Virus record (IMG/VR): IMGVR_UViG_3300036399_001297
Location: 1-64,000 of that record
Length of the DNA: 64,000 nucleotides
Direction: 5' to 3' (one strand)
From: a virus
Positions 1,746-63,373 of the stretch are shown piece by piece (within the stretch, counting starts at the first letter, position 1; the number at the start of each line of letters is the position of its first letter). A program made the position numbers and the translations under genes. The notes beneath the pieces were generated by a model. The model was not told the DNA's origin, did not search any database, and was given only the letters and a program-made list of their open reading frames with translations.

Positions 1746-3398
1746 TTAAAAGAATCGATCTAAAAAGTACTTAGGTAAGGTTTTGCTATATCTTTGAATA
1801 GTATTAACAGCAGTTCCATCCAAAATATATGTGATAGAAAAATCATCCTTTGATCTTGTACACCTCCCACACATTTGAATTATTTTATCTATCATTTTGG
1901 ATGTATAATGTTCAGGATTTTCTTTGAACATTTTTTTAATTCTATTTGAATTTAAAGGTAAATATGGGGCTTTGGTAATAATTTGAAATCTGCCATATTC
2001 ATCATCTAAACTTATACCTGTATCTAATGATGGACTAATTAAAATAGTAGGTTCATTAGATTCAAAATGTTCTTTTATAATATCTTCATTTGTTATACCG
2101 TCTTCTCTAAAAAGAAACCGCCTATCATTTTTTAATTGTTTTTTAAACTCCTCGGTAATTTTATTTGTATGTGTATGTATTAATCCCTTTTCATTAGAAT
2201 GATTTTTACATAGTTCGATAGCATCTTTTACTAAATTCGGTAGCATTTGATCCATTGTTTTATAAGATAAACAATATTTTTTAGAACACATGATAGGTGA
2301 TTTTTTAGGATCAAAACTAGATTTTATTTCAAAATATTCATAATCTTTTTCGTCTATTCCTAGCGTCTTGGCAAATTCTTTATGATTTGATATAGTAGCA
2401 GAAATCATTAATATTTTATCCGCTTTATCAAAAATATTTTTTGATAATGGTTTTATATTATAAGGAGCAAATGTTACTTTATCTGTTGAAAAAGATTCTA
2501 TCAAATATTCACATTCTTTCCAATTAGACAATACCAAATCCATAGTAGATATTAAATTTGTAAGTCTGAATAATTTGCTAGAAATGCTATTATTAATTTT
2601 ATCGAAACCCGATTTTAATGAAACTTTTTGAGCGTTTACAAAACAGTCTTCGTATTCTTTTACAACTTCAATATGTAAATCTTGTAACCATTTTTTAGCT
2701 GAATTTGTATTATCATCTATTATTTTTGTAAATGGTATACCTTCAAATTTTAAATTTTTATAATTTATAGTTAAAGTGTATTTATTTATCAGTTCGTCTT
2801 CCAATTCAGAAGCTTCATCCATAATCAATATTTGTCTTCTTTGTAAGAAATCAGGAAGATTTAAAAATACACTATAATTTAATACAGGAGATTTTGATAT
2901 CAAACCGTTATTTCTATTTCTATAATAAGGGCATCTGTTTTCTTGGAAGCATTCTAATTTTTGAGACGGTAGTAATGTACAAGGCGCAAAATCGGTAGAA
3001 AAACTATTATCTATGTCGCATCTGTAATTTCCCTTTCCTTTGATAATATTTCCATCTATGAACAAATTGGAATATTGATCTTGTAAAGATTTACTAATAG
3101 TAAGAATAAAAGCACCGAAAAAATCAACATCTAAAAATTCTTGAGATACGCTAAATTCGTTATCTTTATTTTTTTTGTATATCGAATAATTTTCGATGTA
3201 TTCTTTTAGATGATCGTCTATTGTGCGGGTACTTTCGGCTATTGTTTTTGCTATATGAGACTTTCCCGAACCTGTGGGCAAACATCCTATGGCAATTTTT
3301 TTACCAGAATCCCATATTTTCTGTATCCTTTGAAACGCTTCAATTTGTTGTGCTCTAGGGGATGACCCAACCGGAAAAAAATCTAAAAATCTGGACAT
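1746..3398 (-). CDS. Superfamily 2 helicase of the XPD/DinG (Fe-S) type
   Basis: 550 aa. Walker A is PTGSGKS (residues 41-47) and the Walker B/DEAH box is IMDEAS (about 202-207). Four cysteines (C127, C140, C150, C156) lie between motifs Ia and II, the position of the Fe-S cluster in XPD/DinG helicases. Near the C-terminus are a DinG-like motif V region (ISPSLDTGISL, then RFQIITKAPY) and motif VI QMCGRCTRS. Members of this family unwind DNA 5' to 3'. The gene has its own vegetative promoter placed for a leaderless transcript, is transcribed leftward, and its -35 overlaps the stop codon of the upstream gene. T4 itself has no close equivalent, so this is a replacement or addition to Dda-like functions (inference). 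Confidence 0.88.
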   Translation of the reverse strand: MSRFLDFFPVGSSPRAQQIEAFQRIQKIWDSGKKIAIGCLPTGSGKSHIAKTIAESTRTIDDHLKEYIENYSIYKKNKDNEFSVSQEFLDVDFFGAFILTISKSLQDQYSNLFIDGNIIKGKGNYRCDIDNSFSTDFAPCTLLPSQKLECFQENRCPYYRNRNNGLISKSPVLNYSVFLNLPDFLQRRQILIMDEASELEDELINKYTLTINYKNLKFEGIPFTKIIDDNTNSAKKWLQDLHIEVVKEYEDCFVNAQKVSLKSGFDKINNSISSKLFRLTNLISTMDLVLSNWKECEYLIESFSTDKVTFAPYNIKPLSKNIFDKADKILMISATISNHKEFAKTLGIDEKDYEYFEIKSSFDPKKSPIMCSKKYCLSYKTMDQMLPNLVKDAIELCKNHSNEKGLIHTHTNKITEEFKKQLKNDRRFLFREDGITNEDIIKEHFESNEPTILISPSLDTGISLDDEYGRFQIITKAPYLPLNSNRIKKMFKENPEHYTSKMIDKIIQMCGRCTRSKDDFSITYILDGTAVNTIQRYSKTLPKYFLDRFF

Positions 3399-6535: not shown

Positions 6536-6895
6536 ATGAAATACGATCAACACTTATTAGAAAGTGCTTATAAAAAAATTTATTTAAAAGAAGAAATTTC
6601 TTCATTTGGAGACGGAGAATATGATCCTTTGCCGAATCCCCCGCAAAAATCCGAAGCCGAAATCGACCGTGAAATTGATGAAGAAGATGACCGTGCCGAA
6701 GTAACTGATTCTGTACAAGAAATAATAAGTAAATTGGGTGATCGGGTAAATACAGAACCTTTGTTAAAAAAACTTAATGATTTAAGTTCGGATAATATAG
6801 AAACTTTAATCAAAACTCTTAATGAAGAAGAACAGTGGACGTTAAAGGATAATCTTATTAGATTTTTATTTATGTTAAGAGGTTATCAATTTTAA
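6536..6895 (+). CDS. Small acidic protein with candidate capsid-targeting leader
   Basis: 119 aa. The N-terminus MKYDQHLLESAYKKIYLKEE resembles the leaders of several other small late proteins here and contains L-K-E, a possible prohead-protease site of the T4 (L/I)-x-E type. The rest is acidic (EAEIDREIDEEDDRAE) with a helical C-terminus. It is cotranscribed with the preceding gene. Its stop overlaps the converging primase stop by 4 nt. An internal-head-protein role is inferred from the leader. Confidence 0.7.
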   Translation: MKYDQHLLESAYKKIYLKEEISSFGDGEYDPLPNPPQKSEAEIDREIDEEDDRAEVTDSVQEIISKLGDRVNTEPLLKKLNDLSSDNIETLIKTLNEEEQWTLKDNLIRFLFMLRGYQF

Positions 6896-7842
6896 AACAA
6901 ATTTTTTAAAATAAAATCATAATCTATTTCATTTAAATCTTTATCCATAGCCATTTCATTAAAATCTTTATACTTTAAAGTTGGCCATTTAAATAATTTT
7001 TCAGAATCATTTAATAGTTTTAATACTTTCTGTTTGGTTTCGTCATCTTTGGTTACTGATATATTATCCAATACCCATATTTTTCTATGAAAAGGAAAAG
7101 TATTAAGTTGTTCTTTTTGGGTTTTTGTTAATGTTAATCCGCAAACAGCAACACCGTTTCTAACAAACATAGAATCTATCGGACCTTCAAATAAAAATAT
7201 ATAATCTATATCAGTATCTATGTTTTCTATTCCAAATATAGTCTTGTCATGACCCATTTTTCCCAAATATCTAGGTTCTGATCCATCTAATGCTCTAGTT
7301 TGATAAAAGACTATTTTATTAGACATGTCATAAAATGGTATAATCAATCTATTTTTATGAACCTTATCGGTAAAACTTATATAATAACTTTTTGATCTAT
7401 TTATGGCGGTATCAAGTTTTCTTTCCTTTATATAATCCAATGCTTTATTAAAAAATTTATTATTTTTATAATATTTTTGTTGTATAGGATCTAATATATT
7501 GATCGAATCGTAAGGTAAAGAAGGAATAATCAATTCCTTTTTAATTTCTACGTTTTTAATTTCAGATGAAAAATCATCATTCTTATTTTCTAATAATATT
7601 TCATCATAAGATTGTCCGGTAATATTAGAAAGCCAATTTATAGCAGACCATGATTTTTGACAATTGAAACAGTATAATGATTGAGTTTTCGGATAATAAA
7701 AAAGTCTTTTCTTTTTACCCCAAGAATTACCTTCTCTACATATCGGACAAGATGCATTATAATTCCCATCATATTTATTAAATGATGGATAGCCCGAATA
7801 GGTATAAAAAGCATTCAGTATATAATTTTCACTTAATGTCAT
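6892..7842 (-). CDS. gp61: gp61-like DNA primase (DnaG type)
   Basis: 316 aa. The N-terminal zinc ribbon is CPIC (C32, C35) with CFNC (C58, C61). The TOPRIM core begins DYIFLFEGPIDSMF (E219, D223), followed by IWVLDN as the second acidic site. The length fits T4 gp61 (342 aa). Primase makes RNA primers for lagging-strand synthesis with the gp41 helicase (37048-38439). The gene stands alone, leftward, behind a vegetative promoter with a striking 17-bp inverted repeat. Confidence 0.88.
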   Translation of the reverse strand: MTLSENYILNAFYTYSGYPSFNKYDGNYNASCPICREGNSWGKKKRLFYYPKTQSLYCFNCQKSWSAINWLSNITGQSYDEILLENKNDDFSSEIKNVEIKKELIIPSLPYDSINILDPIQQKYYKNNKFFNKALDYIKERKLDTAINRSKSYYISFTDKVHKNRLIIPFYDMSNKIVFYQTRALDGSEPRYLGKMGHDKTIFGIENIDTDIDYIFLFEGPIDSMFVRNGVAVCGLTLTKTQKEQLNTFPFHRKIWVLDNISVTKDDETKQKVLKLLNDSEKLFKWPTLKYKDFNEMAMDKDLNEIDYDFILKNLF

Positions 7843-7871
7843 TGAGTTGGTATTATGACATTAAGTGAAAA
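7826..7871. promoter_or_regulatory. 17-bp perfect inverted repeat across the primase promoter and start
   Basis: Arm 7826-7842 (ttttcacttaatgtcat) and arm 7855-7871 (its exact reverse complement) are separated by 12 nt. One arm is the first 17 nt of the primase coding sequence. The other lies over the -10 and spacer, so this is a candidate operator. Confidence 0.75.
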
Positions 7872-7879
7872 AATGTCAA
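7852..7879 (-). promoter_or_regulatory. Vegetative promoter of the primase gene
   Basis: Minus-strand TTGACA at 7874-7879, then CATAAT at 7852-7857 after 16 bp (or TAATAC at 7850-7855 after 18 bp), 7-9 nt before ATG 7842. It predicts a leaderless or near-leaderless mRNA. Confidence 0.7.
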
Positions 7880-7882
7880 CTT

Positions 7883-8671
7883 TTATTTATCGAAGTCGTT
7901 ATAATTATCGTCTAACATTCCTTTTTCGCCCCAAGGATCATCCATATCTATACCCAAATCCTTAGCGGTTTCCGGATCAATATCATGAGAAATTGAACTA
8001 TCCGTATTCATAGGATCAATATCTCCTTCTTCGGTATCGGTTCTAAATGCTTCCATCCCATCGTCTTTACTGTCAAATGATTCCGGTGCTTCTAATTCAT
8101 CTAATGACGGGTCTTTAACAGCAATTAATTTACCATTTTCTTCGCCCAATTGACCATCTGAAATCATTTTATTTATGATCTTGTCAACTTCTTCTTCTTC
8201 ATGACCGTATTTAGAAATGTATGCTTTAACTTCTTCTTTTGTAGCAGCTTCATCATCAGATTCGATGATATAATTATAAATATGTTCTTCTACGCTTGAG
8301 ATCGATTTTGTTTGTTCTTCTTGATTGGCTGCATTTTCATCAAATTCTACAAAATATGAATGATCCGGTGTATTTAAAACGTGCCAGAATCTTTTGAATA
8401 ACAATTTTCTTTCGTCTGGTCCTAAGCCTTGATTCAAGAAACCATGATTTATGGTGCTTTCCCATTCAGGTTTGGTTTCTGGTAAATTTCCGGTGGATTG
8501 TACGTGTTGTAATGCTTGTAGATAGAAATTTTTAAAAGGGCTTTTTAGATTTTTTAAATCTTCGGTCAATTTATCTAAGTTTAAAGTAAATTTAGGGTAT
8601 ACTTTTTTCTTTCTTCCTTCGTTGACTGTTACGACTTTTTCAAAAAGAATGTCAAAATTTGTTTTTTTCAT
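7883..8671 (-). CDS. Acidic late protein with candidate capsid-targeting leader
   Basis: 262 aa. The leader MKKTNFDILFEKVVTVNEG carries V-N-E|G, a plausible prohead protease site. A basic stretch (RKKKVYPKF) and an alpha-helical domain follow, then a very acidic second half (for example DEEAATKEE-type helices and DDPWGEKG near the end). A TATAAATA box lies directly upstream. The charge pattern (basic then acidic) resembles scaffold or internal head proteins, but no family is recognised and the assignment is inferential. Confidence 0.72.
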   Translation of the reverse strand: MKKTNFDILFEKVVTVNEGRKKKVYPKFTLNLDKLTEDLKNLKSPFKNFYLQALQHVQSTGNLPETKPEWESTINHGFLNQGLGPDERKLLFKRFWHVLNTPDHSYFVEFDENAANQEEQTKSISSVEEHIYNYIIESDDEAATKEEVKAYISKYGHEEEEVDKIINKMISDGQLGEENGKLIAVKDPSLDELEAPESFDSKDDGMEAFRTDTEEGDIDPMNTDSSISHDIDPETAKDLGIDMDDPWGEKGMLDDNYNDFDK

Positions 8672-8673
8672 GG

Positions 8674-8681
8674 TATTTATA
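8674..8681 (-). promoter_or_regulatory. Exact T4-type late box TATAAATA (second box GATAAATA at 8685-8692)
   Basis: TATAAATA lies only 2 nt before ATG 8671, too close for a start at AUG by T4 geometry. GATAAATA at 8685-8692 is 13 nt upstream and would give a leader of about 8 nt. Which one is used cannot be decided from sequence. Confidence 0.55.
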
Positions 8682-8695
8682 AACTATTTATCTTT

Positions 8696-13844: not shown

Positions 13845-15256
13845 TATCCATAGATTTTTATAACGATAAAAAAAATTTAATGCAAATAGTTTCTGACTCT
13901 GATGAGTTGGAACTTATAAGGCATCATTTTTCGTGTCCAAATCCAGCAGCAATATCTAGAAATAAATTCATACCAAAAAGATTGTATGCGATAACACCAG
14001 CCGGAAAATTTGAATCTGGTTTGTTGGAAGAAATAAAAAAATATCTAATTTCAGAAAATCTAAGGTTTGAAATATCCGAAGACATAAAAAATTCAAAAAT
14101 CGTTTTTAACGCATCTGAAATAGTGCCTATGCATATTCCATATAGGGAATATCAAGAAAACGCGATAGTGACCGCTATAAGAGAAAACAATGGGGTTATT
14201 GTTGTCGGTACTGGTGGTGGAAAAACACTACTGACGGCTGGATTGATTGTAAACTTACGAGAAAATTTAAAAAAACTAAATGCTAAAGTTTTGGTTACGG
14301 TTCCAACGATTCAACTTGTGGAACAAACTGCATCAGATTTTAAAGAATACGGTCTGACGAAAATATCAAAATGGTCGGGTAAAAACAAATTAGATGCTGA
14401 CGCCGAAATTATTGTAGCCGGAACACAATATCTGGTAGGAAAAAATACAGATTTATCTATATTAAACGACATAGATATTTTAATAATGGATGAGTGTCAT
14501 GTACTTAAAAAAAATAACGAAATAAATAATATTTTTAAATTTATAAAAACCCCGTTCAAATTCGGATTAACCGGATCACTACCAGAAGAAAAAATAGACC
14601 AATGGAATATAAACGGTAAACTGGGACCAATAATTTTCGAAAAGAAAACCGACGAACTCAAAAAAGGCGAGTACGTTTCAGACTTCCAAATTTATCTTAT
14701 AGAAATTGATCATGGTAAAACAAATTTTCCGTTTAATCCCAACTCACCTACATCTAAATATGAAAATGAATTAACATATTTGATGACGTGTGAAAAAAGA
14801 AATGATATAATCTCAAAACTGGTTAACAAAATAAATAAAAACACAATTATAATGGTTGATCGCATTTTGCACGGCGAAGAATTGTTAAATAGCCTTAAAA
14901 AAATATGTATCGATTCCCCTGTTTATTTTATACAAGGATCAACCGAAATGGAAGATCGGGAAAAAATAAAAAATTTGATGGAGAACGAAAGTAATGTTAT
15001 AGTTGTTGCAATATCTAAAATATTTTCAACTGGCATAAATATACCAAATCTTCATTCGATTGTTTTTGCATCCGCTGGAAAAGCTAAAATAAAAATAGTA
15101 CAAAGTATAGGACGTGCTTTGCGTTTACATCCTACAAAAGAAAAGGCTTATATTTTTGACATAGCAGATAACACGTATTATGGTAAAATACATAAAGACG
15201 AACGCAAAAAACTTTATAAGGCCGAAAAATATCCATTTATAGAAAAAAACATATGA
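13841..15256 (+). CDS. uvsW: UvsW-type recombination DNA helicase
   Basis: 471 aa; T4 UvsW is 503 aa. SF2 motifs: Q/I region YREYQENAIV, Walker A GTGGGKT (residues 123-129), motif II MDECH (216-220), motif III GLTGSL, motif V FSTGINIPNL and motif VI QSIGRALRLH. UvsW drives branch migration, regression of forks and R-loop removal at the switch to recombination-dependent replication. ATGA overlaps link it to uvsY and to gene 55. Confidence 0.88.
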   Translation: MISIDFYNDKKNLMQIVSDSDELELIRHHFSCPNPAAISRNKFIPKRLYAITPAGKFESGLLEEIKKYLISENLRFEISEDIKNSKIVFNASEIVPMHIPYREYQENAIVTAIRENNGVIVVGTGGGKTLLTAGLIVNLRENLKKLNAKVLVTVPTIQLVEQTASDFKEYGLTKISKWSGKNKLDADAEIIVAGTQYLVGKNTDLSILNDIDILIMDECHVLKKNNEINNIFKFIKTPFKFGLTGSLPEEKIDQWNINGKLGPIIFEKKTDELKKGEYVSDFQIYLIEIDHGKTNFPFNPNSPTSKYENELTYLMTCEKRNDIISKLVNKINKNTIIMVDRILHGEELLNSLKKICIDSPVYFIQGSTEMEDREKIKNLMENESNVIVVAISKIFSTGINIPNLHSIVFASAGKAKIKIVQSIGRALRLHPTKEKAYIFDIADNTYYGKIHKDERKKLYKAEKYPFIEKNI

Positions 15257-15858
15257 GAAGAAAAAAAATTAACCCTGATTTATTGGTAATAGACGATCAA
15301 GCATTGGAAGACATGGAAAGAGAGTTATTACTGGAAAGTGATGATGACAATTCAACTGACTACGATGAAGATGATGATTTTTTAGATTCAGAAGAAGATT
15401 CTGACGAAGATTCTGAAGACATCTCTGAAAATACAGTGAAAACAAAACCGGAAAAGAAAAAAATTTATATAGTGCCAAAGGAATTTGATGATGCTATTAT
15501 GGAATATTATAAAACCGGAAATCTTACAAACCAATTAGCCGAAATGGTTGATAAAATTGCTCAAAAACTTGCTTATGCTCCAAATTTTATTAACTACAGC
15601 TATAGATCTGATATGATAGGTGATGCTATTATAAAAATGATGAAAGCTCTAATTGGTAAAAAATATCAACATAATAAAGGTTCAAATCCATTTTCTTATT
15701 TCACTAGAATAGCATTCAATGCTTATAGAAACCGAATCAAAATAGAAAAAAGAAATCAAGAAATCCATGAAAAATATAAAGAAGAATTGATGATGTTTAG
15801 CGAGCAATATAACACCATAGTAAAAAACAAAAATATAAAGATTAATAACGATAGATGA
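15253..15858 (+). CDS. gp55: gp55-like late sigma factor
   Basis: 201 aa. The conserved core is YRSDMIGDAIIKMMKA, then SNPFSYFTRIAFNAYRNRI, the sigma region 2-like -10-binding segment of T4 gp55. It is preceded by an unusually acidic N-terminal arm (Asp/Glu/Ser run, about residues 15-55). T4 gp55 directs RNA polymerase to TATAAATA late promoters, and many such boxes occur here. 4-nt overlaps join it to uvsW and 47. Confidence 0.85.
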   Translation: MRRKKINPDLLVIDDQALEDMERELLLESDDDNSTDYDEDDDFLDSEEDSDEDSEDISENTVKTKPEKKKIYIVPKEFDDAIMEYYKTGNLTNQLAEMVDKIAQKLAYAPNFINYSYRSDMIGDAIIKMMKALIGKKYQHNKGSNPFSYFTRIAFNAYRNRIKIEKRNQEIHEKYKEELMMFSEQYNTIVKNKNIKINNDR

Positions 15859-16905: not shown

Positions 16906-17343
16906 TTATCCGCCGCTTTTGCCTGATGAAAAATCTTGTTTAAATCTTAAAAGAAAATCAGGAATTTTTTGGTTTCTTATTTGTAAATTATAAACCAGTC
17001 TTTTGGCTTGATCAATTTTTTCTTTTTTAACTTCTTCCGCCAAAGAATTTAAAATTTTCGGGTCTGTGTTTATAATATCTCCGATAGATTTATTATTATT
17101 TAAAAGATCTACTATCTTATCAACCGAAGCTGTTGCATCTAATTCTGGATTGACCATAGAATCTATAGCAGCACGATCAGAATCAGGATATTTCATGGAG
17201 TTAACCTCATCGGCTTTAATATTAGAAGGAAACAAAGCAGAACCTAACATTCCGGCTACAGCTGCACCAGTTTTTAAATTTAATTCGTTTATTATAATAT
17301 TATTATAAACTTCTTCCATCAATAATGTATCATTATCTCTCAT
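16906..17343 (-). CDS. Small late protein with candidate capsid-targeting leader
   Basis: 145 aa. The leader MRDNDTLLMEEVYNNIIINE parallels MRDNDQIFLENIYSNLLKE of the 19912-20790 protein and ends in I-N-E. Next comes a small-residue hydrophobic stretch (TGAAVAGMLGSALF), a helical region and a Gly/Ser tail. TATAAGTA is 8 nt upstream. Function unknown; packaged internal protein inferred. Confidence 0.72.
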   Translation of the reverse strand: MRDNDTLLMEEVYNNIIINELNLKTGAAVAGMLGSALFPSNIKADEVNSMKYPDSDRAAIDSMVNPELDATASVDKIVDLLNNNKSIGDIINTDPKILNSLAEEVKKEKIDQAKRLVYNLQIRNQKIPDFLLRFKQDFSSGKSGG

Positions 17344-19125: not shown

Positions 19126-19969
19126 AAAAATTGGGTGTGCTTTAATAACCTGTGATAGACCCGATTTTTATAAAAAATCGTTAAATTCTTTATTGGATGC
19201 GGCTCAAGATAAAAATATAGAATATGTTGTAATAAATGATGGATTAGATAAGCTTCCCCTTTATCCTGTTAATTTTATCGAAACTGGTGGTAAAAAAGGC
19301 GTTGCTGTTGCTAAAAATCTAGGGTTAAAATTTTTGATTGATACCGGATGCACACATTTATTTTTAATGGAGGACGACATTGAGATAGTTGATAATAATG
19401 TATTTTCTGAATATATAAAAACCTCAAAAAAGACCGGAATAAAACATTTAAATTTTGGATTGCACGGAAACCATAATAGAGATTCTTTCGGGAATCCTAC
19501 TATTATAAAATCTATTAATTATGGAAATAATACTATTATAGATTTATACCCAAATATTTTAGGAGCATTTAGTTACTATCATAAATCAGTAATAGAAAAA
19601 ATTGGTTTTATAGATGAAGAATATTATTTAAGTATGGAACATGTAGATCATACATATAAAGCATCTTTAAATAACTATACAAGCCCTTGGAGATATTTTG
19701 CGGATATTCATAGATCGCATGAATATCTTATAGATATTGTACCAGACCATCAACAAAGTAAAATTAGAAACGAATCAAATTTTCAAGAAATTTTTAAAAA
19801 AGGATTAGATCTTTTTATAAAAAAGAATGGTTTCAGCGTTGTACAAGGATACGGACCCAAAGAAAATTTTGTAGATGAAAAAACCTGTAGAGAAAAACTT
19901 AAAGAAATTTATCACATGACAAATATTTTACCTACAGCAGAATCTACCAAATTATCAACCCAAGCATAG
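19115..19969 (+). CDS. Glycosyltransferase family 2 protein
   Basis: 284 aa from ATG 19115 (MENEKIGCALITCDRP); an upstream ATG at 19076 lies far inside the previous gene and is disfavoured. GT-A features are CALITCDRPDFYKKSL, YVVINDG, HLFLMEDDIEI (EDD, catalytic metal site) and IGFIDEEYYLSMEHVDHTYK (acceptor side with ED/H-type motif). The C-terminus overlaps the converging 19912-20790 gene by 58 nt. Acceptor unknown. Confidence 0.82.
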   Translation: MENEKIGCALITCDRPDFYKKSLNSLLDAAQDKNIEYVVINDGLDKLPLYPVNFIETGGKKGVAVAKNLGLKFLIDTGCTHLFLMEDDIEIVDNNVFSEYIKTSKKTGIKHLNFGLHGNHNRDSFGNPTIIKSINYGNNTIIDLYPNILGAFSYYHKSVIEKIGFIDEEYYLSMEHVDHTYKASLNNYTSPWRYFADIHRSHEYLIDIVPDHQQSKIRNESNFQEIFKKGLDLFIKKNGFSVVQGYGPKENFVDEKTCREKLKEIYHMTNILPTAESTKLSTQA

Positions 19970-20790
19970 ACTTCGGTTTCAAAATAGGAAATAATATCAT
20001 CTATTTCTTCTTGAAGTTCTGGTGTTATTTGTACAGAATACGGACCTTGAGGAGTTCCCCAAGTAAAATATGTAGGCAAAACTTTAGGAAATTCTCTATT
20101 AAAAACAATTTTTCCGGTTATTATATATTGAGCTATTACTTCATTTGTAAACTCATAAACATTTCTTAATTTTCTATCTCTTGCTGATTTAAAAGTACCT
20201 AGAGCATGAGCAACTTGTCTTTGAATTTCTCTTATATTTCTTATTTTTTTAAAATCGGGTTCATAACTAGAAACTTTTAAATTTCTTTTATAAATTTTTT
20301 CGGAAACACTATTGATCATTTTTTGAAGCATATTATCAAGTTGAATATATTCGTAACTATTACCATTAATATCACCAGATCTTCTTAGAGCATGACCGAA
20401 TCGATGCGCTAATGTCCACGCAGTAGTAGGTACTTTTTCGGCTCCTTTATTATTAGTAAAAAAAATTGTAATATTATTTTCATTAATAGGAATATCTAAT
20501 TTTAATTTATCTCTAATAAAATAAGGATCTACTTCGCCAACTTCGGTATATTTCCATCCTTCTTTTGTAGAAACCATATAGATATCAAAATCCTGTCTGG
20601 TTTTAGCCCAAAGTTTTTTTATTTTTTCTACACCAGCATTACTAGTTAATATACCACGACTTGCCTTATCGTATCCTCTTTTTTTAGAAGTCGGTTCCCA
20701 TTCACCAACTAAATTAAAACTATCTATCGGTGCCTCTTTTAATAAATTAGAATATATGTTTTCTAAAAAAATTTGATCATTATCTCTCAT
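19912..20790 (-). CDS. Late protein with candidate leader and AHRFGHAL motif
   Basis: 292 aa. The N-terminus MRDNDQIFLENIYSNLLKEA nearly duplicates the leader of the 16906-17343 protein and ends L-K-E|A. The body contains TTAWTLAHRFGHALRR, which recalls the zincin helix H-E-x-x-H but has Arg where the catalytic Glu is expected. A long helical region and acidic C-terminus follow. A packaged effector or structural protein is possible; protease activity is not supported. ATGA overlap with the upstream gene. Confidence 0.7.
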   Translation of the reverse strand: MRDNDQIFLENIYSNLLKEAPIDSFNLVGEWEPTSKKRGYDKASRGILTSNAGVEKIKKLWAKTRQDFDIYMVSTKEGWKYTEVGEVDPYFIRDKLKLDIPINENNITIFFTNNKGAEKVPTTAWTLAHRFGHALRRSGDINGNSYEYIQLDNMLQKMINSVSEKIYKRNLKVSSYEPDFKKIRNIREIQRQVAHALGTFKSARDRKLRNVYEFTNEVIAQYIITGKIVFNREFPKVLPTYFTWGTPQGPYSVQITPELQEEIDDIISYFETEVYAWVDNLVDSAVGKIFVM

Positions 20791-27275: not shown

Positions 27276-27910
27276 AAAATTTTGAAGAATATTATGATGT
27301 ATTACCAAACGGATTAATACATCAAAAAAAAATTATAAATGAAATTAAAAAATATGATTTTGAATATGTAAATGATCGATACAATTTGTATGGCGATCAA
27401 TGCGATATGATGTCTTATTTAAGGTATGGTTTTTTAATGGGTGCTATAAAAGAAATACCAAAATCTATATTGGATGTTGGGTATGGTAATGGAAGTTTTT
27501 TAAAAATATGTAAAAATTCAATTAAAACTTGTTATGGTAATGATATTTCGGGGTATCCCTTACCTAAAAATGTTTATTTCGTGGATGATATAACAAAAGA
27601 TTATTACGATGTTATTAGTTTTTTCGATGTTTTAGAGCATTTTGGTGATATAAATATAATAAAAAAATTAAATTGTAAATATATTTATATAAGTGTTCCA
27701 GAGTGTCATTTTATTAACAAAGAATGGTTTTGGAATTGGAAGCATCGTAGACCAGACGAACATTTATGGCACTTCAATATTGATTCTATAACGTCTTTTT
27801 TTAAAACAAATGGTTTCGATTTAGTTTCATCATCAAACGTGGAAGATATCATCAGAAAACCTTCCGACGAAACATCAAATATTTTATCTTGTGTTTTCCA
27901 AAAAAAATAA
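27260..27910 (+). CDS. Class I SAM-dependent methyltransferase
   Basis: 216 aa. Motif I is ILDVGYGNGSFL, motif II region CYGNDISGYPLP, and motif III/IV is VISFFDVLEHFGD. Late YISVPECHF matches Methyltransf_23-type enzymes that act on sugars or small molecules. Its place at the end of the glycosyltransferase operon suggests capping or tailoring of a glycan. DNA methylation is not supported (no N6A or C5 motifs). Confidence 0.8.
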   Translation: MDYSIKNFEEYYDVLPNGLIHQKKIINEIKKYDFEYVNDRYNLYGDQCDMMSYLRYGFLMGAIKEIPKSILDVGYGNGSFLKICKNSIKTCYGNDISGYPLPKNVYFVDDITKDYYDVISFFDVLEHFGDINIIKKLNCKYIYISVPECHFINKEWFWNWKHRRPDEHLWHFNIDSITSFFKTNGFDLVSSSNVEDIIRKPSDETSNILSCVFQKK

Positions 27911-27923
27911 TATAATATTTTAA

Positions 27924-29723
27924 ATGAAAAATATTATATTTGAAACTTTAAAATTTCAAAACTTTCTATCGGTTGGGAATTCGCCAATCGAAATTAATTT
28001 TACTCAAGGTATTAATATAATAACCGGAGAAAATCTAGACAATATAGGTAGTAGAAATGGCATAGGAAAAACTACTATATTAAATGCTTTATATTGGAAT
28101 ATTTTTGGAGAGACTATCAACGATCTTAAAAAAACAAGAATACAAAATAATAAAAGTAAAGATGAATGTTTTAGTGTTTTAAATTTTAGTGCCGAAAAAG
28201 ACCTTTTTAAGATCAAAAGAGTTTTAGAGCCAGCATCAATAAAAATTTTTAAAAACGATGAAGATATAACATTATCTACTATCGAAAAAAACAATGAATA
28301 TATATGTGATGTATTGGGGGTAAATCAAGATGTATTTAAAAATTCTGTTATATTATCGTCAGATAACACCATACCTTTTATGGCGCAAAAGAAAATAGAA
28401 AAGAGAAAGTTTATAGAAGGCGTCATGAATTTAAATATTTTCAGCGAAATGCTTTTAAAAATAAGAAAGGATTACAATGACACTAAAAAAATTTCTGATA
28501 CAAAAACCGTTCTTTTTACCAGCGAGCAAAAAAATCTAGATAATTTAAAAAAACAAAAAATAAACAACGAAATTCTTAAAAATGAAAAAATTGAATCGTT
28601 ATTAAATAGAATCGAAGACAATAAGAAAGAAATTAAAAATATACAGAATAATGATTTTGATGTAACAAATACCATTAAAAACCTACAAGAAGAGTTGTAT
28701 AATAAAGAAGAAAAAATAAACGACATCGAAACAAAAGATTTTATAAAAATAAATGAAAAGTTAAAAGATTTTGAAATTTCTTTAAATGTAAAGAAATCAA
28801 AAATAATAGATTTGAATAAAGAATTAGACAATCTTAAAAAAGCAACAGGTGTTTGCCCTAGCTGTAAAAGACCTTACTCGGAAGATAAATGTTCAAGCGA
28901 AGATAGAATAAATGAAATAACAACAGAACTTGATAACCTAAAGAAAGACTTTAACGATATTTCCGATGAAGACGAAACATTAAAACTTAAATTAAACAAA
29001 ATAAAAGAGATATTACAACAATCAAAAATTAAAAACGTTCAAATAAAAAAAGAAATAGAAAGACTTAAAAATTTAGATAATCAGATTAAAATTATAGAAA
29101 CTAAAAACGAAGAGATATTAAAAAATATAGAAGCACTAAAGGATGAAAAAGACAATACTGATATATTAATAGAAAATTTAACAACCGAAATAAAAACAAT
29201 ACAAGAAGAAATAAAAACCTTATACAAAGAACTCGACATCCTAGAAAACGCTAAATTGATAGTTTCAGAAGACGGTGTTAAAACTATAATCATAAAGAAA
29301 ATTTTAAAATTTTTAAATGAAAGATTGAACTTTTATCTTTTAACACTAGAAGCACCATGTTCATGTTATTTTGACGATACATTCGATACGACCATAAAAA
29401 CATTAAACGGTAAAGATATGGATTATTGGAATTTATCTGGTGGAGAAAGAAAAAGAGTTGATGCTGCTGTAATTTTTACATTTCAAGATTTATTAAAAAT
29501 GCAAACTGGTATAAATTTTAACATCAGTATATATGATGAATGGGCTGATAGCGCATTAGATGAAAAAGGACTGGTAAAATTTTTGGAAATTTTAAGAAAT
29601 AAAGTTAATAAAGAAAACGAATCAATATATATAATATCTCACAATCCAAATATTTCCAATATGGACATAGATAATATAATATTCCTACAAAAGAAAAACG
29701 GTATTACTTCTATTAAAGTATAG
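27924..29723 (+). CDS. gp46: gp46-like recombination endonuclease subunit (Rad50/SbcC type)
   Basis: 599 aa; T4 gp46 is 560 aa. Walker A is NGIGKTT (about 45-51). Long coiled-coil arms flank the zinc hook CPSCKRPYSEDKC (around residue 310). ABC signature is LSGGERKRVDAA and Walker B IYDEWADSALD. Partner of gp47 in double-strand-end resection and in recombination-dependent replication. In T4 the pair are near neighbours; here gp47 ends at 16904. Confidence 0.9.
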   Translation: MKNIIFETLKFQNFLSVGNSPIEINFTQGINIITGENLDNIGSRNGIGKTTILNALYWNIFGETINDLKKTRIQNNKSKDECFSVLNFSAEKDLFKIKRVLEPASIKIFKNDEDITLSTIEKNNEYICDVLGVNQDVFKNSVILSSDNTIPFMAQKKIEKRKFIEGVMNLNIFSEMLLKIRKDYNDTKKISDTKTVLFTSEQKNLDNLKKQKINNEILKNEKIESLLNRIEDNKKEIKNIQNNDFDVTNTIKNLQEELYNKEEKINDIETKDFIKINEKLKDFEISLNVKKSKIIDLNKELDNLKKATGVCPSCKRPYSEDKCSSEDRINEITTELDNLKKDFNDISDEDETLKLKLNKIKEILQQSKIKNVQIKKEIERLKNLDNQIKIIETKNEEILKNIEALKDEKDNTDILIENLTTEIKTIQEEIKTLYKELDILENAKLIVSEDGVKTIIIKKILKFLNERLNFYLLTLEAPCSCYFDDTFDTTIKTLNGKDMDYWNLSGGERKRVDAAVIFTFQDLLKMQTGINFNISIYDEWADSALDEKGLVKFLEILRNKVNKENESIYIISHNPNISNMDIDNIIFLQKKNGITSIKV

Positions 29724-29758: not shown

Positions 29759-31066
29759 ATGGCAATTTCACTTAGAGAAAACGATAGTAATATTAATAAT
29801 AAAGTTGTATATCAATATAACATTATAAAATCAGGATTTCCTAATGCTCCTGTTGGAATGCCAACAGGATCTCCAAGCTATTCTTATGTGGCGGCAAGTC
29901 CTATAAAAGTACCAGAACCACCTCCAATAGAAATGCCAGAAGCAAATTTACCTAGAGCATTAAATTATTATGCTGATTACGGTGGCTGTGGATATTGGCG
30001 CATGATTTGGCCAGAATACCTTATTAATGGGTATAATAAAGGTATTATATCGGGAATGACTCAAATGATACTTGATATGCGTTTTTATAGTTCATTAAAA
30101 GCCGTTAGAATGCAAAGACAAGCCACCGATTCTCAGGTTGCATTTGTAGAAGAATTACAAAAAGTCAAAAAACAAATGGGATTCCGTTTGATCTATGAAA
30201 TTGATGATATAGCACTAAGAGATGATATTCCTCTTTATAATAGATGCAGAGATGCTTTTACAGACCAAAAGATTGTAGATAATATCATGAAAGTTATGGG
30301 ATCGGTTGACGAAATAACCGTAACATGTAAATTCATGAAAGATTACTACCAAGATAAAACTGGTAATAAAAATATTACAGTTTTACCTAACTATGCTCCA
30401 AAATTCTGGCTGGATAAATATTACGATAGAAAAAAATTAGAAAATAATTTTGATAAAAATAAGAAAAGACCTAGAATACTATATGCTGGATCAGGAACTC
30501 ATATTGACGTTCTAAATAGAACAGGCGGCAAGGATGATTTTGGTCATATTGTTGAGTCTATTATAAAGGCTAGAAAGAAATTTAAATTTGTATTTAAAGG
30601 ATGTTATCCAGTAGCATTGAAACCATTCATCAATTCAGGTGAAATGGAATTTCACAATTGGTCGCCTTTATTTGAACTACCGAAAGGATTAGAAGAATTG
30701 GGCTGTAATGCAGTATATGCGCCTTTGGTTGATAATATTTTTAACAAGTCTAAATCTAATATTAAAATGATTGAATCCGGTGCTATCGGCCTACCCGGTG
30801 CATTCCAAGATCTTTGTACCTACGAAGAAGCACCGTTTAGATTTAAAACCGGAGATGAATTAATAGATCAACTATCTACGATAACAAAAGATTTTGATTC
30901 TTATATCAAGCATTCTACCAATGCTAGAAAATATGTTGAAACGATGTGGCTTGAAGATCATATCAACGAATATGAAGCCGTATATTTCACAGAATATGGC
31001 AGCAAAGAGAGAAATAAAAATGCTCCTAGATTGATAGAACTTAACCCCGAACAAAAAATAAATTGA
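29759..31066 (+). CDS. GT-B glycosyltransferase
   Basis: 435 aa. It has a Pro-rich N-terminal arm, then YYADYGGCGYWRMIWP. RLIYEIDDIALRDDIP is the 'yeiDDd....' segment of phage GT1/GT4-like enzymes, followed by EITVTCKFMKDYY. The second Rossmann domain runs from RPRILYAGSGTHIDV to NIKMIESGAIGLPGAF, the nucleotide-sugar-binding 'K..E..a.G.P' region. Its TGA stop forms part of the -35 box of gene 43. Confidence 0.8.
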   Translation: MAISLRENDSNINNKVVYQYNIIKSGFPNAPVGMPTGSPSYSYVAASPIKVPEPPPIEMPEANLPRALNYYADYGGCGYWRMIWPEYLINGYNKGIISGMTQMILDMRFYSSLKAVRMQRQATDSQVAFVEELQKVKKQMGFRLIYEIDDIALRDDIPLYNRCRDAFTDQKIVDNIMKVMGSVDEITVTCKFMKDYYQDKTGNKNITVLPNYAPKFWLDKYYDRKKLENNFDKNKKRPRILYAGSGTHIDVLNRTGGKDDFGHIVESIIKARKKFKFVFKGCYPVALKPFINSGEMEFHNWSPLFELPKGLEELGCNAVYAPLVDNIFNKSKSNIKMIESGAIGLPGAFQDLCTYEEAPFRFKTGDELIDQLSTITKDFDSYIKHSTNARKYVETMWLEDHINEYEAVYFTEYGSKERNKNAPRLIELNPEQKIN

Positions 31067-31090
31067 CGGTCATAAAAAATATTGTATACT
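31063..31090 (+). promoter_or_regulatory. Vegetative promoter TTGACG-N16-TATACT of gene 43
   Basis: -35 TTGACG 31063-31068 (overlapping the TGA stop of the previous gene), 16-bp spacer, -10 TATACT 31085-31090, 6 nt to ATG 31097. This fixes 31097 rather than the in-frame TTG at 31082 as the start. Confidence 0.82.
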
Positions 31091-31096
31091 ATTTCG

Positions 31097-33658
31097 ATGG
31101 GGTTTCGCAATATTTTTTATAACAATAAAACAAATTCTATTCATCTGTGGACGTGGGATGAAAACGGAAATCGGACAGAATTCGATCAAACCGTAGAACC
31201 TTATTTTTTTATAGAATCTAATGATGCTAATGACGGTGTTTCTATTTTTAAATCAAATCTAAAAAAGATAAAATTTGAAAATAATTATGATAGAAAGAAT
31301 TACTTGGAATCATCGCCAATTAAAAAAATATATCACAATCTACCAATAGAACAGCAATATCTATTAGATACATTCAAAACTGGTATTAAAGATGAACACC
31401 CCTTAAAAATTTTCTATCTTGATATCGAAACTTATGCAACCAATAGAAAATTTTCCACACCAGAAGAAGCATCAGATCCCATAAATCTCATAACTATATA
31501 TGATAGTTTGTCTAAAAAATTTTATACATGGGGATTAAAACATTCTTATTATACAAAGGATGATGATGTTATATACACAAAATGCGATTCTGAAAAAGAA
31601 TTATTAGTTTTATTTTTAAAATTTTGGCGGTCAGATTATCCAGATGTGGTTACTGGATGGAACTCTCATGGGTATGATATTCCTTATATTATAAACAGAA
31701 TCGAAAAAGTGTTGGGTGAGGATAAAAATAAAAAACTTTCTCCTGTAAATAAAATATGGCTTAAACCCAAAGCATCCGTAAATCTAAAAGGACAAGCAAA
31801 AGATAGGTGGATAATATATGGAATATCCCATCTAGACTATATGGACGTTTATCAAACCTTTGCTTTAGGGGATAGAGAATCGTATTCTTTGAATTATATT
31901 TCCGAATACGAATTAAAGGAACAGAAAGTGGCCTTTAATTCCGTATCATTGTCAGATTTAGCCGATACAGATTGGCATACCTTCGTAGATTATAATATCC
32001 AAGACGTAAAACTTCTTATTAAACTTGAAGAAAAGTTAAAATATTTAAAATTAGTTAAAAATTTAGCATACAAAGGATTTATTCCATTCGAAAGAGCGAT
32101 GGCAAAGGTGCAACTAATTACAGGAGCAGTAGCATTTCAAGCTCTCAAAGATGGTATGTATATACCAACATACAATATACAAAACGAAAAGGGAAAGTTT
32201 GAAGGCGGGTATGTCAAAGAACCCGTACCCGGTCTGTATGAAAATATCGTAACATATGACGCTAATTCTTTGTATCCGAATACAATTATAACCTTAAACA
32301 TATCACCCGAAACTAAAGTGGGTAAAATTACAAAAATAGAAAATAATAATTACCATTTATTACTTTCAAATAATAAAGAGGTTGTTATATCAAAAGAAAA
32401 ATACGATAAATTAATAACAAAAGAAAACCTAGCTGTATCTAAATCCAATGTACTATATACTCAAAAATTTAAAGGAGTAATACCAAAATTTGTAGACAAT
32501 CTTTATGATCTTAGAGTAAAAGCTAAAAAAGAACAAGGTAAATACGAAAAATTGTATTCAAAAGAAACCGATATAAATTTAAAAGCAAAATACGAAGAAC
32601 TTATTACCGATAATAAAACGTTATCGGAAGTTTATAAAGTGGTCTTAAATTCTTGTTACGGTGTATTCAGTCAAAAATATTCACCTTTATTTGATCTAGA
32701 CCATGCCGAATCCATAACTTTAACAGGACAATCTGCGGTTAAACAAGGCGCTCAAATAATGTTTGATAAATTTATATCAGAAGGAATCGATTGTAAATTT
32801 GATGATATAATTAGATATTCTGACACTGACAGTATATTTATAGAATTTACAAAAATACTGAAAGATAGAAATATAAATCTAGCAAAAAATAATTTGATCG
32901 AAAAAGATTCAAACACCTTGATAGAAAATTTTGGAGATTATCTAAACGCAGAAATACAAGAATGGGCTAAAAAAGAATTAAATTCATTAGACCCTCGATA
33001 TGTTTTCAAAAGAGAAAAAATATGTGATATTGCGGTTCTACAAAAGAAAAAATTTTACATATTACATATTTTGGATAGTGAAGGGATTGCTAAAAATGAA
33101 TTTCTATATAAAGGAATCGAAGTAGCCAAATCTATCATGTCAAAAGAAGTTAAAAGTCTTATAAAAAATAGTATAGAAACAGCAATTCTTTCTAAGAATA
33201 AAGAAACATCGATGAGAATTTTCAATGAAAGTTTTGAAAAATTTCTGAATTTCAACGAAGAATTACTATCGGTTAGAAAAAAAGTTAACGATTATGATAA
33301 AGGAGAAAGGGGATATGTTGATGGTAAATACGCACTAGGTACACCAAATCATACTAAGGCCGCTATAAATTATAACGAACTTCTCAAAAAATTAGAAATT
33401 GATAACAAATATTTAAAAATTGGAAACGGCCAAAAATTTAAATTTTTCTATTGCGAAAGAAATAAATATGGATATTCAAATATGGGATTTTTTACAGATT
33501 ATCCAGAAGAATTTAAGACTTATATAAAACCAGATTATAAATTAATGTTTGAAAAAACTATAGCTCCTGTTATCGGAAGAGTTTATTCTATTATCGGATG
33601 GCCAAAACCTAAAGTTGGATTCGATTATCATACAAACCTATTAGACCTCTTCTCTTAG
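31097..33658 (+). CDS. gp43: Family B DNA polymerase (T4 gp43 type)
   Basis: 853 aa; T4 gp43 is 898 aa. Exonuclease: Exo I FYLDIETY (D109, E111), Exo II TGWNSHGYDIPYI, Exo III DYNIQDVKLL. Polymerase: motif A YDANSLYPN (about residue 388), motif B KVVLNSCYG (about 514), motif C YSDTDSIF (about 576). All catalytic residues are present, and no intein interrupts it. The predicted transcript starts at AUG. Confidence 0.95.
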   Translation: MGFRNIFYNNKTNSIHLWTWDENGNRTEFDQTVEPYFFIESNDANDGVSIFKSNLKKIKFENNYDRKNYLESSPIKKIYHNLPIEQQYLLDTFKTGIKDEHPLKIFYLDIETYATNRKFSTPEEASDPINLITIYDSLSKKFYTWGLKHSYYTKDDDVIYTKCDSEKELLVLFLKFWRSDYPDVVTGWNSHGYDIPYIINRIEKVLGEDKNKKLSPVNKIWLKPKASVNLKGQAKDRWIIYGISHLDYMDVYQTFALGDRESYSLNYISEYELKEQKVAFNSVSLSDLADTDWHTFVDYNIQDVKLLIKLEEKLKYLKLVKNLAYKGFIPFERAMAKVQLITGAVAFQALKDGMYIPTYNIQNEKGKFEGGYVKEPVPGLYENIVTYDANSLYPNTIITLNISPETKVGKITKIENNNYHLLLSNNKEVVISKEKYDKLITKENLAVSKSNVLYTQKFKGVIPKFVDNLYDLRVKAKKEQGKYEKLYSKETDINLKAKYEELITDNKTLSEVYKVVLNSCYGVFSQKYSPLFDLDHAESITLTGQSAVKQGAQIMFDKFISEGIDCKFDDIIRYSDTDSIFIEFTKILKDRNINLAKNNLIEKDSNTLIENFGDYLNAEIQEWAKKELNSLDPRYVFKREKICDIAVLQKKKFYILHILDSEGIAKNEFLYKGIEVAKSIMSKEVKSLIKNSIETAILSKNKETSMRIFNESFEKFLNFNEELLSVRKKVNDYDKGERGYVDGKYALGTPNHTKAAINYNELLKKLEIDNKYLKIGNGQKFKFFYCERNKYGYSNMGFFTDYPEEFKTYIKPDYKLMFEKTIAPVIGRVYSIIGWPKPKVGFDYHTNLLDLFS

Positions 33659-34320: not shown

Positions 34321-34341
34321 TTTATATAAAAACTACAAAAG

Positions 34342-34376
34342 AAATCCCGAAATGTTTTGACATTTCGGGATTTTTT
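34342..34376 (+). terminator. Rho-independent terminator overlapping the uvsX promoter
   Basis: The 13-bp stem aaatcccgaaatg/catttcgggattt (34342-34354 with 34361-34373) has a 6-nt loop ttttga and is followed by a T run to 34376. It ends the 33922-34320 transcript. Confidence 0.9.
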
Positions 34377-34384
34377 GTTATTAT
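34357..34384 (+). promoter_or_regulatory. Vegetative promoter TTGACA-N16-TATTAT of uvsX, inside the terminator
   Basis: The perfect -35 TTGACA (34357-34362) occupies the terminator loop and first bases of its 3' arm. The 16-bp spacer is the rest of the 3' arm plus the T run; -10 TATTAT is 34379-34384, 6 nt before ATG 34391. Confidence 0.85.
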
Positions 34385-34390
34385 ATCCAT

Positions 34391-35242
34391 ATGGCTAAAA
34401 CTAAAAAAGAAAACCTAGAAAACGAACCCCTCGCTGACATTGACGATGCTTTTAAAATCCTAGATGATTTAAATCCAGACGCAGCATTTCTAAATGAGAA
34501 TACCCTTTCCACAGTTAAGGAATGGATAGACACTGGTTGTATGGCTTTAAACGCTATAATTTCGGGTTCGTTGTATGGCGGTATACCTATGGGTAGAATT
34601 ACAGGATTTGCTGGACCCCAAGCATGTGGAAAAACTTTAATGGTTAATAAAATAATGGCTCATGCTCAAAAGAAGGGTATGAGAGTAGCTTATTTTGATA
34701 CTGAAAATGCTCTTGATCCTGATACAGCATCAAATTTAGGATGCGATCCATCAAAAATTAAACATTGTCCAACAGAGGTAATCGAAGAATGTAGAAATCA
34801 AATTGTAAAATTTTTGAAAAGCATCATCGATAATAATCTACAGGGAAAAGTTTTGTTGGTTATAGATTCTTTGGGAAATCTTATATCCTCTAGAGAAGCA
34901 AAAGTAATCGAAGACGGAAAAGATTCGGCAGATATGGGTGCGAGGGCTGTTGCGTGTTTATGTCCAAATACACTTATACACACCATAGACGGAGTTAAAA
35001 AGTTATCCGATTTAAAAATAGGAGATTTTGTTTTGACTCATTTAGGTAGATATAAAATGATAACAAATAAGTGGGAAACAAACCATAAAGAATATATTAA
35101 AATAAAAACAAAAAATTCTTATATTTTATTATCAATAAATCATAAACTTTTAGTAAAAAGAAATTCAAAACTATCATATATAGAGGCCCAAAATATTAAA
35201 CCTACTGATAAATTATTAAAGTTTAACGAGCAAAATCATTAA
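34391..35242 (+). CDS. uvsX: UvsX recombinase N-terminal part fused to N-half of a split intein
   Basis: 283 aa. Residues 1-188 are the UvsX/RecA-type core: Walker A GPQACGKT (about 75-82) and Walker B VLLVIDSLGN. At C189 (codon 34955-34957) an intein N-fragment of 95 residues begins. Block A is CLCPNTLIHT with GVKKLSDLKIGDFVLT, and block B is ILLSINHKLLV (His present). The ORF ends normally without the rest of UvsX; the missing part with the C-intein is at 36370-37041. Trans-splicing would restore a ~365-aa recombinase (T4 UvsX is 391 aa). Leaderless promoter upstream. Confidence 0.93.
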   Translation: MAKTKKENLENEPLADIDDAFKILDDLNPDAAFLNENTLSTVKEWIDTGCMALNAIISGSLYGGIPMGRITGFAGPQACGKTLMVNKIMAHAQKKGMRVAYFDTENALDPDTASNLGCDPSKIKHCPTEVIEECRNQIVKFLKSIIDNNLQGKVLLVIDSLGNLISSREAKVIEDGKDSADMGARAVACLCPNTLIHTIDGVKKLSDLKIGDFVLTHLGRYKMITNKWETNHKEYIKIKTKNSYILLSINHKLLVKRNSKLSYIEAQNIKPTDKLLKFNEQNH

Positions 35243-35258
35243 AATGTAGAGCAAAATA

Positions 35259-35266
35259 CATAAGTA
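35259..35266 (+). promoter_or_regulatory. Late-type box CATAAGTA before the uvsX-locus homing endonuclease
   Basis: CATAAGTA with 7 nt to ATG 35274, inside the gap between the uvsX N-half and the endonuclease ORF. Confidence 0.6.
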
Positions 35267-35273
35267 TGAATAT

Positions 35274-36380
35274 ATGGAAAATATATTCATAAATTATTTT
35301 AAAAAGAATAAAATAAAATTATCAGAAAAATCATGGAATAATTTAACTCTTATAAAAAATATAAGAGTTGAAAAATTTTTATCAATACCTAAAAACGAAA
35401 CTAGATATAAATGGTTTTGTGATTATGACGGAACATCAACAGCTTTAAATTTTGTAAGAAAAAATAGCAAAAAAATAATGATAGAAAAACTTTGTTATAT
35501 ATGTGAAAGTAGTTTAGGTGAACAAACTTTATCAAAACAATTTTCTTTTATATATTCAAGTAATAACGAAAATCTCAAACCATCATCACATTTAAATAAA
35601 ATGTGTTTTAATTGCGCCACAAGAGAAAATTCTAAAAACGGATTAGAGAAAAGAAAAAAAACATGCTTAGATAAATACGGCATAGAATATAAAATTTTAG
35701 ATTCTGACGTAATTAAAAATAGAAAAAAAATTTTAACCGATAGATACGGTGAAAACTATAAAGAATTTTTTTGGGAAAAAGCAAAAAACACTTATATAAG
35801 AAAACTTGGCGTTTCTCATAATACAAAAATTCCAGAAGTTCTGGAAAAAATGGTAAAAAATAGATTAGAAACATTAAAAACCTTATCTCCGGAAAAATGG
35901 AAAGAATGGTCTGATAATAAAATAAAGGCATATAACAAAGAAGGATCTAGTGGATTATTTGGCAGAAATGATTTTGATGGAAATAGTAAGATAGCTAAGG
36001 ATTTTATATCTAAACTTATAAATGTATTAAATCTGCAAGAGAACGAATATATTACAGAAAAACCACATTCGAAATATAATATTGATCTTTATATAAAAGA
36101 TTTGGTTATAGTAGAATTTTATGGTGATTTTTGGCACGCAAATCCAGAAATATATAAACCAGATGACATTATAGGTGTAAGTTACAACACAATTACCGCG
36201 AAAGAGAAATGGGAAAAAGACGCTTACCGAATAGAAAAATTAAAAAACGAATTAAATCTTCCGGTTATAATTGTATGGGAAAAATCATATAAAGAAAATA
36301 AAGATAAAATAATACTTGATATAATCAAAAATATTAATATAATAAAAACCAACAAAGAAATTAAAACATATGTTTATTGA
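35274..36380 (+). CDS. Vsr-like (EDxHD-type) free-standing homing endonuclease
   Basis: 368 aa. The C-terminal part (about 260-350) has KYNIDLYIKDLVIVEFYGDF, then WHANPEIY, matching the Vsr-like core in which E, D and H lie in VEFYGDFWH, followed by AYRIEKLKNELNLPVIIVWE. The N-terminal and middle parts are basic, with CYIC and CFNC pairs probably forming a zinc module, and repeated KTCLDKYGIEYK-like DNA-binding modules. The position between split-intein halves of uvsX matches the fractured-gene arrangement described for environmental phages (Dassa and colleagues, 2009). It overlaps the downstream C-half by 11 nt. Confidence 0.85.
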   Translation: MENIFINYFKKNKIKLSEKSWNNLTLIKNIRVEKFLSIPKNETRYKWFCDYDGTSTALNFVRKNSKKIMIEKLCYICESSLGEQTLSKQFSFIYSSNNENLKPSSHLNKMCFNCATRENSKNGLEKRKKTCLDKYGIEYKILDSDVIKNRKKILTDRYGENYKEFFWEKAKNTYIRKLGVSHNTKIPEVLEKMVKNRLETLKTLSPEKWKEWSDNKIKAYNKEGSSGLFGRNDFDGNSKIAKDFISKLINVLNLQENEYITEKPHSKYNIDLYIKDLVIVEFYGDFWHANPEIYKPDDIIGVSYNTITAKEKWEKDAYRIEKLKNELNLPVIIVWEKSYKENKDKIILDIIKNINIIKTNKEIKTYVY

Positions 36381-38439: not shown

Positions 38440-38447
38440 AAAATTCT

Positions 38448-38473
38448 ATGTTTTATATAAATATATAAAACAT
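38448..38473. promoter_or_regulatory. 12-bp-arm AT-only inverted repeat before the DHH gene
   Basis: Arm atgttttatata (38448-38459) and its exact complement (38462-38473) flank a 2-nt centre, ending 2 nt before ATG 38476. It may be an operator, or an RNA hairpin occluding the start if read through from gp41. Confidence 0.65.
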
Positions 38474-38475
38474 AA

Positions 38476-44252: not shown

Positions 44253-44266
44253 TATGTTTTTATATT

Positions 44267-44304
44267 AAAAAAGCCGAAGAATTTTATAGTTCTTCGGCTT
44301 TTTT
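44267..44304. terminator. Bidirectional Rho-independent terminator
   Basis: aaaaaagccgaagaa (44267-44281) pairs exactly with ttcttcggctttttt (44290-44304) across an 8-nt loop, with A/T tracts on both sides. It separates converging genes 43272-44252 and 44310-47705. Confidence 0.93.
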
Positions 44305-44309
44305 ATTTA

Positions 44310-53987: not shown

Positions 53988-53988
53988 T

Positions 53989-54855: not shown

Positions 54856-54861
54856 TAGAAA

Positions 54862-54869
54862 TACTTATA
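54862..54869 (-). promoter_or_regulatory. Late-type box TATAAGTA before the GIY-YIG gene
   Basis: TATAAGTA with 6 nt to ATG 54855, in the 47-nt gap after the terminase N-half stop. Confidence 0.68.
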
Positions 54870-54902
54870 CACGATGATTTATTATAGATGAATTTGCTTA
54901 TA

Positions 54903-63368: not shown

Positions 63369-63373
63369 ATAAA

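Follow-up and report, generated by a model that had tools for sequence, protein, structure and literature searches.

A perfect 17-bp inverted repeat lies across the start codon of the DNA primase gene of a T4-related phage and reaches back into that gene's promoter. Our preferred reading, to which we give a probability of about two in three, is that it encodes a start-codon hairpin built into the primase promoter, with translation depending on which promoter made the RNA. Read-through RNA from the gene upstream, probably made late via GATAAATA/TATAAATA, would carry both arms, and its hairpin would hold the primase AUG and codons 1-6, leaving primase untranslated from that RNA. RNA from the TTGACA/CATAAT promoter would begin in the loop, without the 5' arm, and be a near-leaderless message with an open AUG.

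The repeat and its promoter match

The stretch of DNA analysed (the window) is 64,000 nucleotides long, with 29% G+C, and comes from a virus record of 83,004 bases. The features needed for the argument are:

6892-7842 (-): T4 gp61-like DNA primase (PHROG 47, E 5e-40; ~30% identity to Straboviridae primases)
7826-7842 (-): hairpin 3' arm, primase ORF nt +1 to +17, codons 1-6
7843-7854 (-): hairpin loop, 12 nt, including the remainder of the -10 and the predicted transcription start
7852-7857 (-): -10-like CATAAT with TG in front, 9 nt before the ATG
7855-7871 (-): hairpin 5' arm, within the promoter and predicted to be only in read-through RNA
7874-7879 (-): -35-like TTGACA, a promoter match
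7883-8671 (-): same-strand upstream gene, its stop 40 nt before the primase ATG; N-terminus MKKTNFDILFEKVVTVNEG, common to most relatives' upstream genes
8674-8692 (-): two T4-late-type boxes before the upstream gene, GATAAATA at 8685-8692 and TATAAATA at 8674-8681
15253-15858 (+): gp55-like late sigma factor (PHROG 234, E 3e-24)

The arms, TTTTCACTTAATGTCAT (7826-7842) and ATGACATTAAGTGAAAA (7855-7871), are 17 nt long, 100% complementary and separated by a gap of 12 nt, just as a preliminary description of this DNA had them, and the 3' arm coincides exactly with nucleotides 1-17 of the primase ORF. No other perfect inverted repeat in the window is as long, and this one is confirmed as genuine, far beyond chance: in 150 order-2 Markov simulations arms of at least 16 never arose, and arms of at least 15 did so six times. 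No second copy of the 17-mer is present in the window at up to three mismatches, or in the whole record at up to two, and among viral contigs there are 17 scattered single matches. In an Rfam search the hairpin reached the gathering score of no family, the sole match (17.4 bits against a gathering score of 72.9) being chance. Nor does the repeat have the form of an intrinsic terminator; it is absent from the terminator scan, and the stem is followed by TTATATACTG, with no T-run.

The preliminary assignment of the gene as primase is upheld by the PHROG 47 match, by the identity to Straboviridae primases and by a CHC2 zinc ribbon that scores just under the Pfam cut-off. Its promoter match consists of TTGACA (7879-7874), a spacer of 16 and CATAAT (7857-7852), with 11/12 matches. 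The 5' arm takes up the greater part of the spacer together with bases 1-3 of the -10, in agreement with the earlier remark that the repeat overlaps both. Transcription is predicted to start at 7845, 3 nt before the ATG. A -10 hexamer some 5-9 nt before the start codon, the mark of leaderless genes, is what the primase has, and the best -10 hexamer is at that distance in 29 of 42 distinct primase upstream regions and in 14 of 17 polymerase upstream regions. Judged by these hexamers the near-leaderless layout is general among these primase and polymerase starts; the close -10 in 29/42 primase regions makes it likely that the primase's own mRNA is near-leaderless, and the earlier view that a leaderless transcript would include one arm only is thereby strengthened.

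Other arrangements in the window deserve recording. A 16-bp repeat at 44266-44305, between converging genes, is likely a two-way terminator. A terminator-like hairpin at 34339-34396 (+) has TTGACA in and beside its loop, and this could act as -35 element for the gene that follows (TTGACA-N16-TATTAT-6 nt-ATG at 34391). The ORFs at 16906-17343 and 19912-20790 (-) have identical first 15 bases, ATGAGAGATAATGAT. Matches to the terminase large subunit are split (52305-56642) into 52305-54017 and 54903-56642 (-), with a homing-endonuclease-like ORF at 53989-54855 between them, possibly an intron or a split gene.

Pairing and sequence in related primases

The two nearest relatives, L003 and L004 (primase protein identity to this phage 86% and 80%), have a repeat at the same place, with arms GCTTAGTGTCAT / ATGACACTAAGC and TAGTGCCATGA / TCATGGCACTA respectively. 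Within this nearest trio the pairs at ORF positions 4, 7 and 12 are altered on both sides with pairing intact, and the arms are spaced by 12, 9 and 12 nt. Further relatives were aligned on the primase start codon. Their arms are TATTGTCA/TGACAATA in L128 and L129; TTCTGGTATT/AATACCAGAA in L131 and L134, with one mismatch in L132; TTCAGGTATT/AATACCTGAA in L136, of which L138 has a variant carrying G:U; TCTGTTAA/TTAACAGA in L139; and AAAAGAGTCTGG(T)/(A)CCAGACTCTTTT in L141, L144 and L148, L142 having 13 bp. In L005, which is more distant, the repeat measures 8 bp, TTCAGTTA/TAACTGAA. In all, a repeat straddling the start codon is present in ten related primase starts, with no fewer than five different sequences and registers among them; stem sequence and register vary across lineages, and so does the loop (5-30 nt). 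On these alignments, then, what is conserved is complementarity across the start codon and not the sequence of the arms. The preliminary description had looked to conservation of the upstream arm in related phages: its complementarity is kept, its sequence is not.

The hairpin is not a feature of all primases of the family, an idea that was considered and rejected with distant members at background: other primases at ~40% identity are mostly at background with no hairpin, and the two T4-like isolates checked (L151 and L152) have no repeat at the annotated primase start. A search of genome contigs yielded one distant relative with a 39%-identity primase (L149), in a 375-kb contig titled as a Paludibacteraceae MAG, a title that is possibly a host hint for the wider family or possibly the result of a mis-binned phage.

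The best-repeat score peaks at the primase start codon, where its mean over 10 primase starts is 10.8 as against ~5.3 nearby. The summed score for the 10 is 108, the null from 20,000 draws in the same contigs being 53.8 (sd 4.6, maximum 75); for six sequence-distinct groups the sum is 66 against 32.2 (sd 3.5), a value reached in 0 of 50,000 draws, though since the lineages share ancestry such statistics overstate independence, and the differing registers lessen this without removing it. Repeats of 7-8 bp tested singly are not significant (p ~0.09-0.15). With random synonymous recoding of the first codons the observed score exceeds the null (P ~0.01-0.045) in this phage, L003, L004, L142 and L144, and in the remaining primase starts there is no such excess.

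Are other genes so equipped? Related contigs supply 172 distinct gene starts, of which five score at least 11; four of the five are primase. In this phage the top three of 95 gene starts are those of primase (17), DNA polymerase (13) and an SbcC/gp46-like gene (13); of 3,000 random positions three reach 13-14 and none reaches 15. The features of the latter two are:

27909-27921 (+): SbcC/gp46-like gene repeat, 5' arm, including TATAAT
27928-27940 (+): SbcC/gp46-like gene repeat, 3' arm, codons 2-6 of the gene at 27924-29723
31069-31084 (+): DNA polymerase promoter repeat, 5' arm; TTGACG 31063-31068, N16, TATACT 31085-31090, 6 nt, ATG
31108-31123 (+): DNA polymerase repeat, 3' arm, polymerase codons 4-9
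31097-33658 (+): T4 gp43-like DNA polymerase (PHROG 262, E 1e-177; ORF as listed from 31082)

A hairpin as a conserved polymerase feature is unsupported, since over 18 starts P = 0.05 and the repeat is strong only in this phage and L119, and the gp46 hairpin was not seen in L125, L126 or L127. The polymerase and gp46 repeats, not being conserved in close relatives, are suggestive only.

Read-through RNA and the rival explanations

The preliminary description had reasoned that, with a single arm transcribed, the repeat must act as DNA. That does not follow, as read-through RNA from the same-strand gene 40 nt upstream would carry both arms. Each of the 13 primase loci checked has an ORF on the same strand that stops 30-41 nt before the primase start. 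The upstream protein of this phage has an N-terminal pattern, FD..(V/F)E...EG, common to the upstream proteins of most relatives, and we take it to resemble T4 capsid-targeting sequences. TAAATA is enriched 5' of genes in this phage (24 of 73, with 6.2 expected) and a gp55-like sigma factor is encoded, so that a T4-type late class is likely; judged by these sequence motifs and its own late boxes, the upstream gene would therefore probably be a late gene, and probably a head gene, with RNA able to enter the primase gene. We infer that such entry takes place.

Several further late-type boxes are of note. The box NATAAATA is often 5-6 nt before an ATG (63368-63381, 63973 onward and 58098-60914, all (-), and many others), and the tail-tube gene has GATAAATA-TTTAT-ATG; this spacing suggests that late mRNAs may be near-leaderless as well. 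At 38447-38474 (+) a 13-bp palindrome is centred on TATAAATA, just before the DHH-phosphoesterase-like gene at 38476. The start of ORF 35274 is in a strong predicted hairpin (35250-35310 (+), z -4.7) beside a TAAGTAT box, and going by the predicted fold this is perhaps the same device on a late-type promoter.

At the 15 starts examined the 5' arm occupies spacer, -10 or discriminator sequence, so that 0-2 of its bases fall past the predicted start site and belong to the predicted near-leaderless mRNA. Folding was predicted over -200 to +150, the readout being the unpaired fraction of the first 15 nt of the ORF. For this phage it is 0.02 in read-through RNA, 0.75 in leaderless RNA and 0.52 with the upstream sequence shuffled. 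Among the relatives the predicted read-through values are 0.12 for L003, 0.17 for L004 and 0.14-0.38 for most others, and the leaderless values 0.42-0.76. Accessibility is lower in read-through than in leaderless RNA at all 12 primase starts tested, at two only slightly; the effect is weak in L128 (0.61 vs 0.68) and L144 (0.38 vs 0.42). The gp46 start of this phage behaves as the hairpin reading predicts (0.28 read-through, 0.89 leaderless), and at the polymerase start no opening in leaderless RNA is predicted (0.39 vs 0.39). A consideration that tells against the hairpin as silencer is that an internal AUG without a Shine-Dalgarno may translate poorly in read-through RNA anyway, and a silencer would then be less needed.

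The main rival, unlikely in our estimate and compatible with the switch rather than exclusive of it, is that the hairpin serves the upstream gene as a structure at the 3' end of its RNA (stabiliser, RNase III or other processing site, or weak terminator) after the stop codon. In its favour the hairpin is just past a same-strand stop codon at 13/13 loci, RNase III could cleave a stem of 17 bp, and processing would likewise stop primase translation from read-through RNA. Yet the 3' arm is always within primase codons though there is room for a hairpin upstream, the score maximum is at the start codon, the terminator scan and the missing T-run speak against termination, and the hairpin persists in L136 and L138, where the upstream gene is kinase-like and non-homologous. 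Re-initiation at primase by ribosomes that have completed the upstream gene and opened the hairpin is the least probable of the explanations considered: the stop codon is just 30-41 nt from the primase start, but the 5' arm is ~9-27 nt outside the translated upstream region, and because it is beyond that region translation does not traverse it. Template switching typically yields long perfect arms, and such fold-back copying, offered in the preliminary description, could have created the second arm as a functionless relic. It could create an arm; it would not place repeats at the same start codon lineage after lineage, in different registers and with near absence from other gene starts, and the compensatory pairing at positions 4, 7 and 12 also speaks against a passive relic, which makes this reading highly improbable.

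Hardly more probable is the other reading proposed earlier, in which a DNA operator with two half-sites covers the primase promoter. The repeat does overlap the -10 and spacer, and the DNA polymerase promoter of a related phage, L100, has a dyad, TGACACTA-TGT-TAGTGTAA, whose TTAGTGT half-site is common to the L003 primase promoter. An operator should have half-site sequence and spacing conserved in relatives, and here arm sequence, length and spacing all change while complementarity stays. Compensatory change, the varying spacing (12, 9 and 12 nt in the trio), and unrelated arm sequences at other offsets in other lineages argue for pairing and not for a protein half-site; besides, the record has no third copy of the arm, and the G:U of L138 retains RNA pairing while breaking the DNA dyad. 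The L100 dyad (2966-3001 (+)) is compact, with a ATACCGAC-ATG junction as in the L003 primase promoter; a half-site TTAGTGT(C/A)A shared across promoters was entertained and dropped, as it is in these two promoters and not general. Equally improbable is that a protein, for instance a RegA-like repressor or primase itself, binds the hairpin RNA and represses translation. T4 does have RegA and gp43 (PMC3014915), but stem sequence, loop length and register vary by lineage, no common loop motif was seen among the lineages, and leaderless RNA would be without the hairpin to be bound.

A start-codon hairpin escaped by the primase's own promoter is thus the reading that we prefer. A wider proposition, on which we would put even odds, is that this T4-related branch makes near-leaderless early mRNAs from promoters that also serve as anti-start-codon strands, with each such gene translated only from its own promoter. 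Late read-through would then make no primase (nor perhaps, in this phage, polymerase or gp46), and the strand would be rebuilt in new registers as codons drift.

Known start-site hairpins and leaderless genes

A search of open-licence papers found none on this arrangement. If the hairpin reading is right, the classic means by which T4 keeps late genes silent has a converse here, in which a replication gene is shielded from read-through, and start-site hairpins extend to near-leaderless messages with no Shine-Dalgarno to hide. Promoter, start codon and antisense strand of the start codon are packed in ~55 bases, and the pairing rebuilt in different registers is a natural series of compensatory experiments. 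For uncultured phages it offers a search rule: a start codon preceded at 5-9 nt by a -10 box, and first codons complementary to the promoter.

In T4 e, soc, 49, I-TevI and segB, and in Aeh1 mobE, a helix hides the start region in long RNA initiated upstream; the promoter is within the region of the 5' strand, and the local transcript, without the inhibitory strand, is translated (PMC3014915, PMC2988022). As in T4 e, soc, 49 and I-TevI, the 3' strand of the repeat here covers the translation start, and, going by the predicted start sites at the 15 starts, the promoter would likewise yield RNA from which the 5' strand is missing. The T4 hairpin genes are all late genes on early or middle transcripts (PMC2988022), and they have Shine-Dalgarno leaders and are driven by T4 late (or middle) promoters; the primase, in contrast, has TTGACA-N16-CATAAT, a host-type -35/-10 promoter, with a predicted near-leaderless mRNA, and its 3' arm is coding sequence of an early-type replication gene. 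Timing would be reversed too, the silenced RNA here being likely the late one. Leaderless genes of Deinococcus-Thermus have a -10 hexamer a few nucleotides before the start codon and leaderless or near-leaderless mRNA (PMC12340547), a layout like that of the -10 box adjoining the primase ORF; in the parts of that account consulted no complementary promoter arm hiding the start codon is described, and phage go unmentioned there. The T4 gene 43 operator, a protein-bound hairpin ~40 nt upstream within the gene's own leader (PMC3014915), likewise puts structured RNA close to where a replication gene begins, but the primase hairpin differs from it in being missing from the predicted mRNA of its own gene.
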